Below, one piece after another: positions 9,288 through 61,800 of a stretch of DNA of 64,000 bases. A program made the translations under genes and the position numbers. Location of the stretch: NCBI RefSeq assembly GCF_000661955.1, contig NZ_CP007597.1, positions 1,481,605-1,545,604 of the forward strand, written 5' to 3'. How positions within the stretch are numbered: the stretch's first letter is position 1; every line of letters starts with the position of its first letter. The notes beneath the pieces are model-generated. The model was not told the DNA's origin. It saw only the letters and a list, made by a program, of their open reading frames with translations, and ran no database searches. The DNA comes from Stenotrophomonas rhizophila (lineage in GTDB: Bacteria; Pseudomonadota; Gammaproteobacteria; Xanthomonadales; Xanthomonadaceae).

Positions 9288-9364
9288 TGCGGGGTGGAGC
9301 AGTCTGGCAGCTCGTCGGGCTCATAACCCGAAGGTCGCAGGTTCAAATCCTGCCCCCGCTACCA
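9288..9364 (+). tRNA. initiator tRNA-fMet (CAT), copy 2
   Basis: Sequence-identical to the gene at 8906 over all 77 bases including CCA: the same T-T mismatch at 1-72, three G-C pairs under the anticodon loop and CAT anticodon. The flanks differ upstream, but the terminator downstream is shared. Confidence 0.97.
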
Positions 9365-9399
9365 CAGAAAATCTGCAGTGCAGATGCAGTAGACGAAGA

Positions 9400-9428
9400 A
9401 GCGATTCCGGAAACGGGGTCGCTTTTTT
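9400..9428 (+). terminator. intrinsic terminator of tRNA-fMet copy 2
   Basis: The stem AGCGATTCCG / CGGGGTCGCT with GAAA loop is followed by TTTTTC. Near copy of the hairpin at 9021-9049. Confidence 0.9.
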
Positions 9429-9528
9429 CGTTGTGGGGTTTGGTTGTTTTTTCGAGGCAAAAGGCAAAAGGCAAAAGCAACCGCTGAAGCCAGGGCCAGA
9501 GCAAATTCGGTGCGCGGGCATCTGGGAG

Positions 9529-9636
9529 GGCGCTGGCATGGGTGGGCTTGCGGGGCACGCTGCAAGTACGTCCTTGTAAGCTCCGCCAGCGCATCCATGC
9601 GCTGGAGGGCCCCGCAAGCCCACCCATGCCAGCGCC
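9529..9636 (+). repeat. double-hairpin intergenic element A
   Basis: Outer arms of 28 bases (9529-9556 and 9609-9636) are perfectly complementary. Inside, after ACGCTG, comes a CAAGTACGTCCTTGTAAGCTC segment (shared with element C apart from small changes), then an inner hairpin CCAGCGCAT-CC-ATGCGCTGG. The same architecture recurs at 9846, 58106 and 58452 with different but self-complementary arms. I know no established name for it. It is not a terminator by sequence, since no T-tract follows. Confidence 0.8.
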
Positions 9637-9845
9637 TCCATAGAGTGTCGGTGTGCAACGAAGATCAACGGCCGGCTCTGCTTTCGGTTTCTTTTCGCCG
9701 TATCGCCAAGTGCTGAGGATTCGGTCGGGTGTGTTGTTTGGGTTTGTTGAGTGGGTGGTGGTGCGGGGTAGGGCAGGGATCTGGCTTGGCTGTTGGCGCG
9801 TAGCGCTGCCTTGTTTGATCTCAACGACTGGCCCATTTGCATCCA

Positions 9846-9954
9846 GGTGCCGGTGCGGGTGGGTTGGCGGGACCGTTGGGCGCCATGGATGGCGCTCACG
9901 AGCCTCCACGGATGGATTCACGGCGTGTCCCGCCAACCCACCCGCGCCGGTGCC
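9846..9954 (-). repeat. double-hairpin intergenic element B
   Basis: Reverse orientation relative to A. The 28-base outer arms 9846-9873 and 9927-9954 pair with three G-T wobbles and no other mismatch. The inner hairpin is GCGCCAT-CC-ATGGCGC on the minus strand. The spacer has TGAATCCATCCGTGGAGGCTC in place of the AAGTACGTCC segment. Together with A it forms an inverted pair 209 bases apart. Confidence 0.78.
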
Positions 9955-10054
9955 CGCGACACAAGCGACCAGCCCAGCCTTCGATCTACGCGCCAGAAGC
10001 CAACCACGCCCTGTTCAGCTTTCGCAATAGCCACCCGGCAAAAACCCCCAGCCA

Positions 10055-10083
10055 TTGCACCAGCGCGGTGCAACGGCTATCAT
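10055..10083 (+). promoter_or_regulatory. probable promoter of rimP-nusA-infB operon
   Basis: TTGCAC, a 17-base spacer, then TATCAT. The -35 lies in a perfect inverted repeat TTGCACC-AGCGC-GGTGCAA (10055-10073), which could be a regulator site. The predicted start near 10090 leaves a leader of about 280 bases before rimP. Confidence 0.6.
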
Positions 10084-10207
10084 CAGCGGCTTAGCGGACT
10101 GTCCATGCATATCCTTTCAACGGATGTGAATGCGGCCCGCGACCGGCTTCCAGGAACGGCACCCTGTACCCAGGCCGCCGTGACCCCCCGGAAGGCTGGG
10201 CTCGCAG

Positions 10208-10230
10208 GAACACACACCGCGTGTGTTCCC
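10208..10230 (+). other. hairpin in the rimP leader
   Basis: GGAACACAC-ACCGC-GTGTGTTCC, a perfect 9-bp stem with a 5-base loop and no T-tract. It precedes the terminator-like stem at 10271 and may be part of a structured leader. Confidence 0.45.
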
Positions 10231-10270
10231 GCTACCGGAATCCAGCATGACCGGAGTTGTACCGGACAAG

Positions 10271-10292
10271 GGGCCCAGCGGGCCCTTTGTTG
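10271..10292 (+). terminator. terminator-like hairpin in the rimP leader
   Basis: GGGCCC-AGC-GGGCCC followed by TTTGTTGTTT, 78 bases before the rimP start. It sits downstream of the predicted promoter, so it may act as an attenuator, or as a terminator for upstream transcripts with a further promoter downstream. No data distinguish these. Confidence 0.5.
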
Positions 10293-10369
10293 TTTCCGGA
10301 ACATGTTCAGTAGAGCCCGGCCAGCGTGACTGGCCAAACCGTATCTCTTTCAACGAATCAAGGCCGACT

Positions 10370-10960
10370 GTGAGCGACAAGGCAACCGAAATCGCGAATC
10401 TGCTCGCCCCCACCGTTCAGTCGCTGGGTCTGGAGCTGCTGGGCGTGGAATATCTCACTGCCCCGGGTGGTGCGACGCTGCGCCTCTACATCGACGTGCC
10501 GCTGGCCGAACAGCCCGAGCGTATCGTCAACATCGACGACTGCGAACGCGTCAGCCGCGAAGTGTCCGCGCAGCTGGACGTCGAAGACCCGATCAGCGCC
10601 AATTACACCCTGGAAGTTTCGTCTCCCGGTGTGGATCGCCCGCTGTTCACCGCAGAACAATTCGAGCGTGCCATCGGCGAATCCGCCAAGGTCACGCTCA
10701 AGCTTCCGCAGGACGGCCGTCGTCGCCTGCAGGGCGAGATTCTCGCTGTAGACAATGAGCAGGGTACCGTCACCTTCAAGGTCGACAACGCCCCGTTCAC
10801 CGCCGACGTCGAGAATATCGACAAGGCACGCATCATGCCGGACTGGGCCGCCCTCGGCCTCGCTCCGACCAAACCGACTGGCCCGGCACCCAAGCAGGGT
10901 GGCAAGGCGAACAAGAAACCATCCAACGAGCCGGCGGCTAAAAAGCCGCGCGCGGAGTGA
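10370..10960 (+). CDS. rimP: ribosome maturation factor RimP
   Basis: 196 residues from a GTG start; the frame is open further upstream, but family similarity begins at [16 protein letters not shown]. RimP aids 30S subunit maturation. Visible landmarks are [39 protein letters not shown] (close to the family's core motif) and [15 protein letters not shown] ending the N-terminal domain. The C-terminal half is the Sm-like domain, followed by a Lys/Pro/Ala-rich tail of about 35 residues. nusA starts 4 bases after the stop, as in the conserved rimP-nusA-infB operon. Confidence 0.94.
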
Positions 10961-52375: not shown

Positions 52376-52546
52376 GTAGAGCCGACCGTTGGTCGGCTGC
52401 TTTGCGCGTAAAACCATCCCGTGACATGACCGGTAGAGCCGACCGTTGGTCGGCTGCTTTGCGCGTAAAACCATCCCGTGACATGGCCGGTAGAGCCGAC
52501 CGTTGGTCGGCTGCTTTGCGCGTAAAACCATCCCGTGACGTCAGTC
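52376..52546 (+). repeat. three tandem 57-bp units, each with a SMAG palindrome
   Basis: GTAG starts at 52376, 52433 and 52490 give an exact 57-base period. Each unit is a 25-base SMAG (GTAGAGCCGACC to GGTCGGCTGC) plus a 32-base tail containing TTTGCGCGTAAAACC and ATCCCGTGAC. Near-identity of the units, with only a few differences, points to recent duplication. It sits in the convergent gap before dxs. Confidence 0.92.
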
Positions 52547-52552
52547 ACCACC

Positions 52553-52576
52553 CAGCCGGGCAGAGCCCGGCTCTAC
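52553..52576 (-). repeat. SMAG-like palindrome, opposite orientation
   Basis: On the minus strand GTAGAGCCGGGC...GCCCGGCTG. It lies 12 bases after the dxs stop, facing the tandem 57-bp repeats. Confidence 0.75.
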
Positions 52577-55325: not shown

Positions 55326-55449
55326 AGGTTCGTTCCGGGTAGCAACCGACCGCTGGTCGGTTGGCCCTCGTTCGTTCCGGGTAGCAACCGACCGCTGGTC
55401 GGTTGGCTCAGGTTCGTTCCGGGTAGCAACCGACCGTTGGTCGGTTGGC
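55326..55449 (+). repeat. three tandem 42-bp units with variant SMAG palindromes
   Basis: GTAG at 55339, 55381 and 55423 gives a 42-base period. Unit: (G)TTCGTTCCGG, then GTAGCAACCGACC, a GGTCGGTTG return arm and a short spacer. Arms differ from the common SMAG (CAACCGACC in place of AGCCGACC) while remaining complementary. Upstream of the HNH gene. Confidence 0.88.
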
Positions 55450-55480
55450 TTCCGGGCGTGGCGTCGCCGTGGCCGCCGAT

Positions 55481-55505
55481 GTGCCGACCAACGGTCGGCA
55501 CCTAC
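55481..55505 (-). repeat. SMAG-like palindrome
   Basis: On the minus strand GTAGGTGCCGACC...GGTCGGCAC. A third arm variant in the same 350-base intergenic region. Confidence 0.75.
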
Positions 55506-55583
55506 GCGGGCAGGCCTTTCATCTGCGGCCAGTGCATGCCGATCCCCCGGGCACCATCCACACTCGATTGATCCACATCCCCG

Positions 55584-55610
55584 GTCGCCACCGACCGTTG
55601 GTCGGTGGGC
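55584..55610 (+). repeat. SMAG-like palindrome without GTAG end
   Basis: GTCGCCACCGACC ... GGTCGGTGGGC, directly before the stop codon of the acyl-CoA dehydrogenase gene at 55621. It probably lost its GTAG terminus. Confidence 0.6.
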
Positions 55611-57949: not shown

Positions 57950-58060
57950 GGGCGCAATCCTCGAGCAGGTGCCGCGTGGGCCAAAGCATACTACGGCGTA
58001 TGGTGGTTGTGCTGGCTTTGGGTTTTGGTGGGTGCAGGGTAGGGGGTTTTTGTTTCGAAG

Positions 58061-58085
58061 CTGAAGCCAGAGCCGGAGCCAGAGC
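58061..58085 (+). repeat. hexamer repeat, left flank of elements C/D
   Basis: CTGAAGCCAGAGCC GGAGCC AGAGC: about four tandem AGAGCC-type hexamers. A shorter version, GCTGAAGCCAGGGCCAGAGC at 9484-9503, precedes element A. Confidence 0.7.
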
Positions 58086-58105
58086 GTCGGCTTGGTGGGG
58101 AGGGC

Positions 58106-58204
58106 GGGCGTGGGTGGGTTGGCGGGACACGCCGCAAGTACGTCCCTGTAGGCTCGTTCGCGCCATCCATGGCGCTCTACGGTCCCGCCAACCCACCCAC
58201 GCCC
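58106..58204 (+). repeat. double-hairpin intergenic element C
   Basis: Outer arms of 23 bases (58106-58128 and 58182-58204) are perfectly complementary. Inside are ACGCCGCAAGTACGTCCCTG and TAGGCTC, nearly as in element A, and the inner hairpin GCGCCAT-CC-ATGGCGC. Plus orientation. Confidence 0.8.
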
Positions 58205-58266
58205 ACCCCTCCAGCCATGGTCGGCGCGTAGGTGAGAGCAAGAGCAGTGGGTCGGGGAGGGGGGGG

Positions 58267-58294
58267 GTAGTGCCGAGCGTTGCTCGGCACCTAC
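58267..58294 (+). repeat. GTAG-ended perfect palindrome
   Basis: GTAGTGCCGAGCG ... TGCTCGGCACCTAC has GTAG on both strands, so it reads as a double-ended SMAG-like repeat. Located between elements C and D. Confidence 0.7.
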
Positions 58295-58451
58295 GCCAAC
58301 CCCAACCCCAACCCAGACTCCAACCCAGATCCCAGATCCCGCCTTCCACCTTCCACCTTCCACCTCGGCCCCTCCCTCGGCCCCTCCCACCGTCAGCACA
58401 CAGCCTCAAAAAGGCCAACGCTTTTCCCCTGCGCACCTGTTCACTATCGGG

Positions 58452-58557
58452 GGTCGGGGCGTGTGGGTGTGCGGGACCCTCCACCGCATGGATGCGGTGG
58501 CGGAGCTTACATGGACCTACTTGCAGCGTGTCCCGCACACCCACACGCCCCGGCCCA
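58452..58557 (-). repeat. double-hairpin intergenic element D
   Basis: Arms 58452-58478 and 58531-58557 (27 bases) pair with one G-T wobble. The minus strand has ACGCTGCAAGTAGGTCCATG then TAAGCTC, as in A, and the inner hairpin CCACCGCAT-CC-ATGCGGTGG, a compensated variant of A's. Inverted relative to C, 247 bases away. Confidence 0.8.
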
Positions 58558-58580
58558 GCCAGCGCAACACGCACACCAAA

Positions 58581-58633
58581 GCTCCAGCTCTCGCTCCGGC
58601 TCCGGCTCTGGCTCTGGCCCTGGCTCTGGCTCT
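58581..58633 (-). repeat. hexamer repeat, right flank of elements C/D
   Basis: GCTCCAGCTCTCGCTCC then GGCTCC, GGCTCT, GGCTCT, GGCCCT, GGCTCT, GGCTCT: on the minus strand it is AGAGCC-type, the same hexamer as the left flank, so the whole 58061-58633 block has inverted symmetry. Confidence 0.75.
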
Positions 58634-58811
58634 AAAGAGCTCTTAAAAGCTTCAAAAAAACAAACCCACCCCCAACCCCGTAAAGTCAGACCGGAACAAA
58701 AGCGCGGCCAATCACCGGGCGCAGTGGCGGAACACGCACGCCGGTGCATCTGGATTGTTCAGGGGGGTACGAAACATCGCCGCTCATGTTCACTTTCACG
58801 GGGAAGTATCC

Positions 58812-61800
58812 ATGCGTTCGTACAAGTTGCAGCCGTTGGCCCGCGCCATCCGCGGAGGCCTGATGGTGTCGGTGCTGGGCATGGTCACGCCCGCCCTGGC
58901 CCAGCAGGCCAGTTTTGATATCGCCGGGGGGCGTATCGAAGAAGCATTGCCCGAGTTTGCGCGCCAGGCCGGCATCCAGATCATCAGCCCCGCCGCAGGC
59001 GAAGGCGGCATCGCCGTCTCCGCCCTCAAGGGCCAGATGGACGCCCGGCAAGCCCTGGCACAACTGCTCGCCGGCACCGGGCTCAGTGTCGCCTCCGATG
59101 ATGGCCGTACCATTACACTGCGCGCCGATCGCCCGCTGCTCGCCTCGCTGGGCGGCACCGCACTGCTCGCCGCCCAATCCTCGGCCACTACCGTCGCCCC
59201 CGAGCCCGCGCCGCTCGACGCCGCACGCAGCGCCCCGGTCACGCTCGACTCGGTCACCGTCGTCGGCACCCAGATCAAGGGCGCCAAAAGCGCCGCCCTG
59301 TTGCCCGTGGCCACCCTGCAGGCCGAACAGATCGAAGCCACCGGCGCGGTCTCCGGCGACGAGCTCTACCGCGCCATCCCGCAGATGGGCGACGTCTCCT
59401 TCAGCGGCACCAACGGCGGCAACAGCTCCAACTACGCGCGCGGCGACATCGCCTCGGTCAACCTGCGCGGGCTCGGCGTCGGCAACACCCTGCTGCTCAT
59501 CAACGGCCGCCGCACCGTCGTGCATCCCACCAGCCAGGCCGACGGCAACCTCGTCCCCGTGCTCACCTACAACGCCAACACCGTCCCGGTCGCCAACCTG
59601 CGTCGGGTCGAAGTGCTGCTTGACGGCGCGGCCGCCATCTACGGCACCGACGCCGTCGCCGGCGTGGTCAACAACGTCCTGCGCGACGATGTCGACGGCG
59701 GCACCATCAGCGTCCAGCGTGGCATCGGCGAAGGCACCAACCTGCGTGACATCGGCATCAACGGCCTGGTCGGCAAGAACTCGCAGGACCTGCGCAGCAA
59801 CGTCACCCTGGCCTTCAACTACTACGCCACCACCGGCCTGAACTCGCTCGACCAGGACTGGACCCGCAGCGCGGACCGCGCGCCGGACTTCGTCGGCACC
59901 GCGTTCGAAGGGCTGAGCGGCACCGACAACCGCAACAGCAACAGCCCGTGGGGCAACTTCACCGCGATCGGCCCGCGCGTGCGCCAGGGCAGCACCTTCC
60001 TCACCACCGCCGCGGGTGCGTTCCACGTGCAGCCGCTCACCAACGAGGGCTGCAACGCCACCGTGGCCGATGGCCTGTGCGTGCAGTCCGGCAGCAAGGC
60101 CACCGCCGGTGCCGACCGCAATCTGTTGGACAACCAGCAGGCCCAGTTCCCGCTGTCGATCACCCCCGACGTGCACCGCGTCAACCTGTTCCTGACCGGC
60201 AAGCATGACTTCGAAAATGGCATCACTGCCTTCGGCGAAGCCGGCTGGTATCAGTCCAAGGCCCGCAGCCTGCAGTCCGGCGTCAACACCATTGCCGCAC
60301 TGCCGATGACCGTGGCCGCCAGCAACTACTGGAACCCGTTTGGCGCCACCACGCTGCCCGACGGCAGCGCCAACCCCAACCGGCTGGCCAACCTCAACGT
60401 GGCTGCCGGCGGCATTCCGGTCAGCATCAGCAGCTACCGCTTCGAGCGGCCCACCCAGATCGACGTCAAGAACACCCAGGTGCGCGCGCTGGGCGGCCTG
60501 CGCGGCTTCCACTTCGGCTTCGACTGGGAAACCGCGGCGCTGTATTCCAAGGCCAAGGTGGTCGATACCCAGGACGCGGTCAGCATGACCCTGTTCCAGC
60601 AGGCGCTGACCGATGCCACTTCGGCCGCCTACAACCCGTTCTGCGGCGGCTGCAACGACTACGGCAAGCTGGACCGGTTCTTCTACAAGGCCACCCGCAC
60701 CAGCGAGACCGAGCTGTACCTGTGGGACCTGAAGGCCTCGCGCCCGGACCTGTTCCGCACCTGGGCCGGTGACGTGGGCATGGCCACCGGCCTGGAAGTG
60801 CGCCGCGAAACCCAGCGCGACGACCGCGACGCGCGCGTGGACGGCAGCATTACCTATACCGACAGCATCACCGGCGTCAGCTACCCCAGCGACATGTACG
60901 GGGTGAGCCCGACCCCGGACACCGAAGGGTCGCGCACCGTGGCCGGCCTGTTCGCCGAGTTCTCGGTGCCGCTGGTGTCGCGTGAGATGTCCATTCCGCT
61001 GGTGCGTGCACTGGACCTGCAGGTGGCCGGGCGTGCCGAGCACTACAGCGATTTCGGCAACGTCACCAAGCCCAAGCTGGCCCTGGGCTGGACCGTGATC
61101 GACGGGCTTACCGTGCGCGCGTCGTGGGCCAAGGGCTTCCGTGCGCCGAACCTGGAGCAGGTCAACGCCACCGTGGTCAGCCGGTCCAACACGCGCACCG
61201 ACTACATCCAGTGCGAAGCCGACGTGCGTTCCGGCGCGCTGGCCTCGATCAATGCCTGTGGCAGCACCTACCGTTCGTCCACCACCGCGCGGCGCTCGGG
61301 CAACCCGGACCTCAAGCCGGAAACCTCGACCAACACCAGCGCCGGCATCGTGTTCCAGCCGCAGTTCATCCCCGAAGACTTCGGTCGTTTCACCTTCGCG
61401 GTGGACTACTACAAGTACGAGCAGGAAGGCATCATCGGCCTGTTCGGCGAGGGCAACGGGCTGATCCTGGACTATCTGCTGCGCCAGCAGGGCAGCAGCA
61501 ATCCCAACGTGGTCCGCGCCGCCCCCACCGCCGATGACATCGCGCGCTTCGCCGGTACCGGCCTGGATGCCGCCGGCAAGGTGCTGTATGTCACCGACCA
61601 GTACGTCAACATGCAGCCGCAGACCGTGCGCGGCGTGGACTACAGCGTGGCCTGGAGCTCGCCGGACACCCGCATCGGCCGGTTCGACGTGGGCATCAAC
61701 GGCACCCGCCTGATCGAGTTCTACCGCGACCGCTCGCCGGCGCTGCAGGCATTGGAAGACGCCAAGGCCACCGGCCTGGTCGATCCGTCGATCGCCATCA

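Follow-up and report, generated by a model that had tools for sequence, protein, structure and literature searches.

A class-wide dispersed repeat with a three-way-junction fold and two ANGGA loops as a candidate CsrA/RsmA decoy RNA in Stenotrophomonas rhizophila

CsrA/RsmA selects the SELEX consensus RUACARGGAUGU, displayed as an ANGGAN hexaloop with a variable N, and a CsrA dimer bridges sites that lie 10–63 nt apart, best at more than 18 nt, while very stable structure may weaken binding (PMC7652899, in the part of the text available). For Xanthomonas, the accessible part of one paper reports no homologue of the CsrB, RsmY or RsmZ type, and presents RsmU, which derives from a 3' UTR, as a new family limited to that genus (PMC7694677). 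Changing all four GGA motifs of RsmU failed to abolish RsmA binding in vitro (PMC7694677, same portion), and GGA alone is thus no sure guide to binding. Among repeats, REP sequences are described as 20–40 bp long with a GTAG or CGTC end (PMC3733652, in excerpt), SMAG is known from Stenotrophomonas maltophilia (PMC2613905, in excerpt), and R178 of Pseudomonas fluorescens is a 101-bp repeat with an 11-bp internal inverted repeat, found in 9–28 copies per genome (PMC2718517, in excerpt).

The window analysed here, a 64,000-nt stretch of the Stenotrophomonas rhizophila genome, holds four copies (A–D, Table 1) of a repeat about 106 nt long, in which an outer stem of 23–28 bp is topped by a three-way junction with two hairpins. 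All four are present within a few bases of where the original prediction had placed them, and they rank first (I1–I4) in an inverted-repeat search, with arms of 24–36 nt at 86–100% complementarity; the arms of copy C reach 58093/58217 at 86%. The outer stem is as first described, but the stretch given there as a AAGTACGTCC spacer and RGCTC is a second hairpin, and the shape is therefore a three-way junction. The informative strand is, moreover, the reverse of the one described. On the plus strand, hairpin 1 reads TAC-RTCCNT-GTA, with TCC/GGA and CCC/GGG forms as well, and it sits on a short GC[CT]/[AG]GC stem; hairpin 1 of copy D has one stem mismatch, the sole such copy among 67.

Table 1. 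Positions of the four repeat copies, their parts and the spacers between them, numbered within the window.
Feature	Position	Inferred RNA strand	Basis or content
Copy A	9529..9636	minus	inverted-repeat search; re-found by model R1
Copy A outer arms	9529-9556 / 9609-9636		
Copy A hairpin 1	9567-9578		RNA UACAAGGACGUA
Copy A hairpin 2	9586-9605		RNA-strand loop AUGGAU
Spacer between back-to-back A and B	9637..9846	none	
Copy B	9847..9953	plus	inverted-repeat search, fold prediction
Copy B outer arms	9850-9873 / 9927-9950		
Copy B hairpin 2	9880-9895		
Copy B hairpin 1	9905-9916		UCCACGGAUGGA
Copy C	58101..58209	minus	inverted-repeat search
Copy C hairpin 1	58139-58150		
Copy C hairpin 2	58160-58175		
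Spacer between back-to-back C and D	58210..58450		contains GTAG-type GTGCCGAGC...GCTCGGCAC palindrome
Copy D	58451..58556	plus	inverted-repeat search
Copy D hairpin 2	58481-58500		
Copy D hairpin 1	58508-58519		UACAUGGACCUA

Short SMAG-like palindromes with GCCGACC/GGTCGGC or GCCGAGC/GCTCGGC cores, a separate known kind (PMC2613905, in excerpt), also occur in the window at 52433-52576, 55343-55605 and 58258-58295. The DNA flanking the hairpins, for example at 9460-9520 and 58050-58090, has a 6-base periodicity: across 82 flanks, identity is 0.392 at lag 6 but 0.25-0.31 at the remaining lags up to 11, and the signal consists of locus-specific hexamer tracts such as (GAGCCA)n and (AACTGC)n.

A covariance model built from copies A–D (R1) gave 116 matches genome-wide at E <= 1, and 82 distinct places once reverse-strand shadows were removed. 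At least 68 of these are strong and intact (E <= 1e-8), whereas 11 of the remaining 14 have a core broken by inserts and three have simply diverged; since this search scored 150 of 5270 candidates, the copy number is a lower bound. The four copies on which the original prediction had based a family are thus part of a far larger set with maintained stems, and the outcome that it had named as fatal, a search returning those four only, did not occur. Two-sided changes could be seen at 14 of 35 predicted pairs in the four copies alone. In an alignment of 37 copies from six genomes and three families (the own genus, f7 and f4), 94.4% of cells are paired, compared with 60.1% in shuffles that do not keep the relatedness among copies, and sliding the partner by 1-3 columns lowers pairing to 33.6-41.6%. 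Two-sided changes affect 39 of the 43 pairs in this alignment, including all 27 outer pairs, and both inner hairpins covary as well; the outer arms are almost freely variable, yet 98.2% paired. The claim of compensated arms and inner stems in a dispersed family is thereby borne out, and the covariation shows what appears to be a selected fold.

The mismatches that do occur in the stems are not distributed evenly between the strands. The outer stems of 67 own-genome copies (L061, which has masked bases, is left out) hold 1663 Watson-Crick cells, 54 A-C, 2 G-T and 43 others, and the 54 A-C cells are G-U on the opposite (RNA) strand, so that wobble pairs stand at 54 to 2. Across the inner 25 pairs the wobbles are 53 to 1, or 37 to 0 once position 23 is removed, and copy by copy 38 of the 67 lean to the RNA strand, one to the opposite strand and 28 to neither. 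R1 was built on the opposite strand, and the search therefore did not create the bias. Copies in other genera, found with R2, a model of the favoured strand, give 131 G-U on the RNA strand against 20 in 87 copies (98 of 113 could be parsed, and a total of 26 were either missed or excluded because they paired poorly); there, 42 of 64 loci have more G-U and three have more A-C. We read this bias as selection for RNA pairing from the GGA strand, in counts whose cells are not independent among related copies; strand-biased deamination is a possible alternative source. The pair closing the loop of hairpin 1 runs against the bias, being A-C on the RNA strand in 29 of 67 copies. Similarly, 18 of 37 hairpin-1 loops in the six-genome set have no A-U closing pair on the RNA strand, where the other strand has G-U; the ANGGAN rule permits a missing A-U closing pair in this hairpin.

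Read on the RNA strand, both hairpin loops resemble CsrA/RsmA sites. The loop of hairpin 1 is A-N-G-G-A-Y, with the A and GGA in 67 of 67 own-genome copies, N being G in 23, U in 21, A in 16 and C in 7, and Y being U in 38 and C in 29. That of hairpin 2 is A-U-G-G-A-U, again with the A and GGA in 67 of 67, and the loops are closed by C-G in 66 of 67 (hairpin 1) and 68 of 68 copies (hairpin 2). In hairpin 1, the two outermost stem pairs are most often U-A and A-U in the six genomes (25/37 and 24/37), giving UACANGGAYGUA. Position 2 varies in loop 2 as well in other genera, although those copies were partly fetched by a pattern fixing GGATG and TACANGGAYGTA, so that only the free N is informative there. 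Each RNA would thus carry two GGA motifs in hairpin loops, as Csr/Rsm antagonists do, and the 20 nt between them fall within the 10-63 nt that one CsrA dimer bridges (rule from the available part of PMC7652899). We calculate that the four fixed bases would match by chance in both loops, on either strand, with a probability of about 2 x (1/256)^2; should one hairpin derive from the other, the figure becomes 2/256. The junction, GAGC ... GCGU, is nearly or fully fixed too, which CsrA does not explain.

Based on the fold, the strand bias and the loops, the repeat is best explained as a dispersed, probably mobile element acting as a scattered CsrA/RsmA decoy, a reading to which we give a probability of roughly 0.5 and which includes production of the RNA, its binding and an importance for the cell. 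If transcribed, the GGA strand is predicted to fold into a Y-shaped RNA whose two ANGGA loops, 20 nt apart, could be gripped together by one CsrA/RsmA dimer. The approximately 70 genomic copies may then serve as scattered decoy or docking sites, lowering free RsmA wherever read-through transcription arrives. A crude scan around the A/B and C/D pairs found no sigma-70-like promoter. A back-to-back pair would suit such read-through, as transcription from either side would always take in one copy in binding sense. All 23 pairs of own-genome neighbours up to 700 bp apart are arranged in this way, with RNA strands pointing outward, and in 43 of 46 paired and 29 of 36 single copies the RNA strand points towards the nearer of the two genes, whichever way that gene is oriented (gene predictions from a custom gene finder). 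The gene in that direction shares the orientation of the RNA strand in 36 of the 82 copies, i.e., there is no sense preference, and a cis-regulatory leader as a rule was not supported on this count. This lack of preference, the promoter scan, the stability of the structure, the RsmU result, the fixed junction bases and the 11 of 82 places with an insert in the core all count against the decoy reading.

The element is spread through a whole bacterial class, the Gammaproteobacteria. Profile searches found it in 70 of 369 genomes and 62 of 271 genera of the class, and a draw across the phylum found it in 19 of 299 genomes, all 19 in the same class; named carriers among the matches listed include Xanthomonas, Marinobacter, Shewanella, Rheinheimera, Pseudomonas, Microbulbifer and Methylotuvimicrobium. 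At E <= 1e-5 it is present in 31 of the 61 genomes from the genus and order. Of the 37 genomes of the genus itself, 10 lack it and one yields a single match; copy numbers in species of one genus are 0, 12 or at least 60 (63, 10 and 13 candidates per genome were scored when searching relatives, class and phylum, and copy numbers are lower bounds). Loops conserved class-wide suit a class-wide partner such as CsrA. CsrA was detected in 65 of 70 carriers and 248 of 299 non-carriers (p 0.04), and in good-quality genomes in 59 of 60 against 221 of 254 (p 0.009), phylogeny being ignored in both comparisons. However, CsrA went undetected in five of the 70 carriers, among them G255, which is 98% complete, and among relatives it is present in 58 of 61, in carriers and non-carriers alike; the association is therefore weak and confounded with genome reduction.

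A tentative, wider proposal is that a class-wide mobile repeat spreads bidentate CsrA/RsmA-binding RNAs. Such a distributed sponge of dozens of copies per genome might be the RsmA antagonist so far missing in Stenotrophomonas and related bacteria, and expansion or loss of the repeat might retune the regulator between species. If the RNA binds CsrA/RsmA, a mobile repeat would be seeding the sites of a global regulator across a whole bacterial class, and species with 0, 12 or at least 60 copies would be expected to differ in free RsmA. Little is known of RsmA antagonists in the Xanthomonadaceae, which makes the repeat a directly testable candidate.

The same arrangement could be that of REP/REPIN-like, non-autonomous mobile DNA, and we regard this as possible, if rather doubtful, as the main alternative to the decoy reading. 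Here the GGA strand would fold as single-stranded DNA, a transposase or recombinase would read the loops and junction, and the inverted pair would be the mobile unit. Consistent with this, copies are many, none of the 82 lies in a predicted gene, and the pairs of the own genome keep one order throughout. In 77 loci of other genomes (71 of at least 120 matched loci plus six others), 17 of 23 neighbouring pairs point outward, five inward and one is in tandem; three of the inward pairs lie between or beside outward ones, and six outward pairs are only 48-56 nt apart (L160, L181, L200, L220). Presence at the same site also varies between species. Among 30 genus loci compared with R2 at the A/B site, some of which, as at C/D, end at contig ends, G000, G027 and G023 have a clear copy B and G013 a partial one; for copy A, the match is clear in G000 and weak in G027. 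Inserts are present in the copies of G013 and G027, and G019 retains a remnant. At the C/D site, only G000 and G027 matched among 30. The 12 of 30 A/B loci read by eye gave no clean single insertion step; presence differs between species, and loss is as possible as gain. A Y1-type transposase is present in 59 of 70 carriers and 182 of 299 non-carriers (p 0.00015, phylogeny ignored) and in all 31 carriers among the 61 relatives. This association is statistically stronger than that of CsrA and speaks for mobile DNA. The original prediction had looked to a linked gene present in every carrier; for CsrA and Y1, the two genes searched for, enrichment was found, but neither is in all carriers or exclusive to them. 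The carrier lists were matched by eye before Fisher tests, and the no-CsrA status of G255 and G401, two of the five such carriers, and the no-Y1 status of 11 carriers were taken from their absence in the positive lists.

Those 11 carriers, which include nearly complete genomes with 8-10 reported copies (G298, G406), argue against a mobile element of this kind. Furthermore, REPs are 20-40 bp long with a GTAG or CGTC end, whereas this repeat is about 106 nt long and has GTAG near its end in 1 of 68 copies and CGTC in 7 of 68. A loop that stays constant over dozens of families would fit a ubiquitous host protein better than diverging transposases, and 54 G-U to 2 A-C is what RNA pairing would lead one to expect. 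The decoy and the single-strand-DNA mobile readings can nevertheless both be true.

Several related candidates were set aside. Arm sequences are not conserved, so that a terminal-repeat transposase would be unlikely, and a terminal-repeat MITE was rejected on the same ground. An autonomous element with its own gene between the hairpins was rejected as well: the DNA between the hairpins of the wide pairs inspected is either an IS110-type insertion or ordinary host genes, encoding EPSP synthase (L265), a type II/IV secretion ATPase (L266) and an AsmA-family protein (L056). A linked CsrA paralogue was not evident among the relatives: each of the 31 carriers there has one csrA match, as do most non-carriers. 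Carriage by plasmids or phages was rejected, as blastn of copy C, a test of nucleotide similarity with one copy, gave no match in either collection.

The repeat itself receives insertions. In four own-genome copies (L052, L051, L054 and L059, at C1 ~977654, 101955, 3663910 and 3875713) an IS110-family insertion occupies one fixed spot, between hairpin 1 (..TGTA or ..TGGA) and GGCTC; the L052 insertion carries the Pfam domains DEDD_Tnp_IS110 and Transposase_20, and at the far end of the IS the remaining half of the element could be located in three of the four, but not in L059. The repeat thus looks like a site-specific IS110 target, as REPs likewise are. A structured insert of about 90 nt with compensated stem changes lies in the hairpin 2 loop at C1 1278550, 1776334, 2524055, 3032636, 3662410 and 4205725 of the own genome and at ~1800-1980 of L083, and its own loops also read CAGGAC on the RNA strand (by eye). 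A different structured insert of similar size lies in the hairpin 1 loop and removes its GGA (by eye) at C1 3150040 of the own genome and in L272 and L274. In L340 (G601, C1 94417-95656), six tandem copies on one strand with a period of 227 bp display 12 ANGGA loops, an arrangement that favours the decoy reading, and each unit also holds a GTAGGAGC-type palindrome.

Arms that vary freely and stay paired could also come from template switching in replication, in which quasipalindrome correction keeps the arms perfect and yields variable but paired arms, leaving a fold without function. This explanation is very unlikely, as it predicts neither the invariant loops and junction nor the one-sided 54:2 wobble bias, and both inner hairpins covary too. 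A bidirectional terminator or mRNA-end stabiliser between genes, to which the intergenic positions and the very stable hairpins (predicted at -87 to -102 kcal/mol with flanks) would lend themselves, is highly improbable, as the stems have no T-tract after them, copies lie between divergent (11), tandem (54) and convergent (17) genes among the 82, and scans found terminator-like sites only outside the copies (at 9360-10370, five against 1.3 expected, all outside A and B; at 57950-58850, one against 0.9 expected, outside C and D). A transcription terminator was therefore rejected, in agreement with the original prediction.

At the Rfam gathering threshold, a search of the 64-kb window returned three tRNAs only and left copies A–D unmatched, so a known Rfam family was rejected and the view that the element has no known name holds to that extent. 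Permissive searches gave 61 and 35 matches, all sub-threshold and mostly to microRNA precursors; C4 antisense RNA scored 27.7 bits, its threshold being 45. Even if CsrA/RsmA binding fails to hold, a structured repeat with class-wide conserved loops and no Rfam match marks a clear gap.

ERIC and other imperfect-palindrome repeats are similar in being about 100-130 bp long, intergenic and palindromic. ERIC, however, is conserved in sequence throughout, whereas this repeat combines a conserved core with almost freely variable arms. REP, REPIN and SMAG share with the repeat that they are dispersed intergenic palindromes, often in inverted pairs, but SMAG palindromes are short (about 23 nt) and of the GTAG type, in contrast to about 106 nt with variable arms and conserved loops. 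The literature search found no description of this repeat; R178, compared by description only, may be an earlier, unlabelled sighting of a relative, although its description, in the part available, gives no fold, strand or CsrA link (PMC2718517). In relation to the decoy reading, the Csr/Rsm antagonist sRNAs (CsrB, CsrC, RsmY, RsmZ, RsmU) are alike in their loop GGA, in several sites per RNA and in hosts with CsrA. They differ in that the crude scan of the window pairs gave the repeat no promoter, and in that they are dedicated genes, whereas the repeat consists of dozens of copies, each with two sites and a long variable stem.
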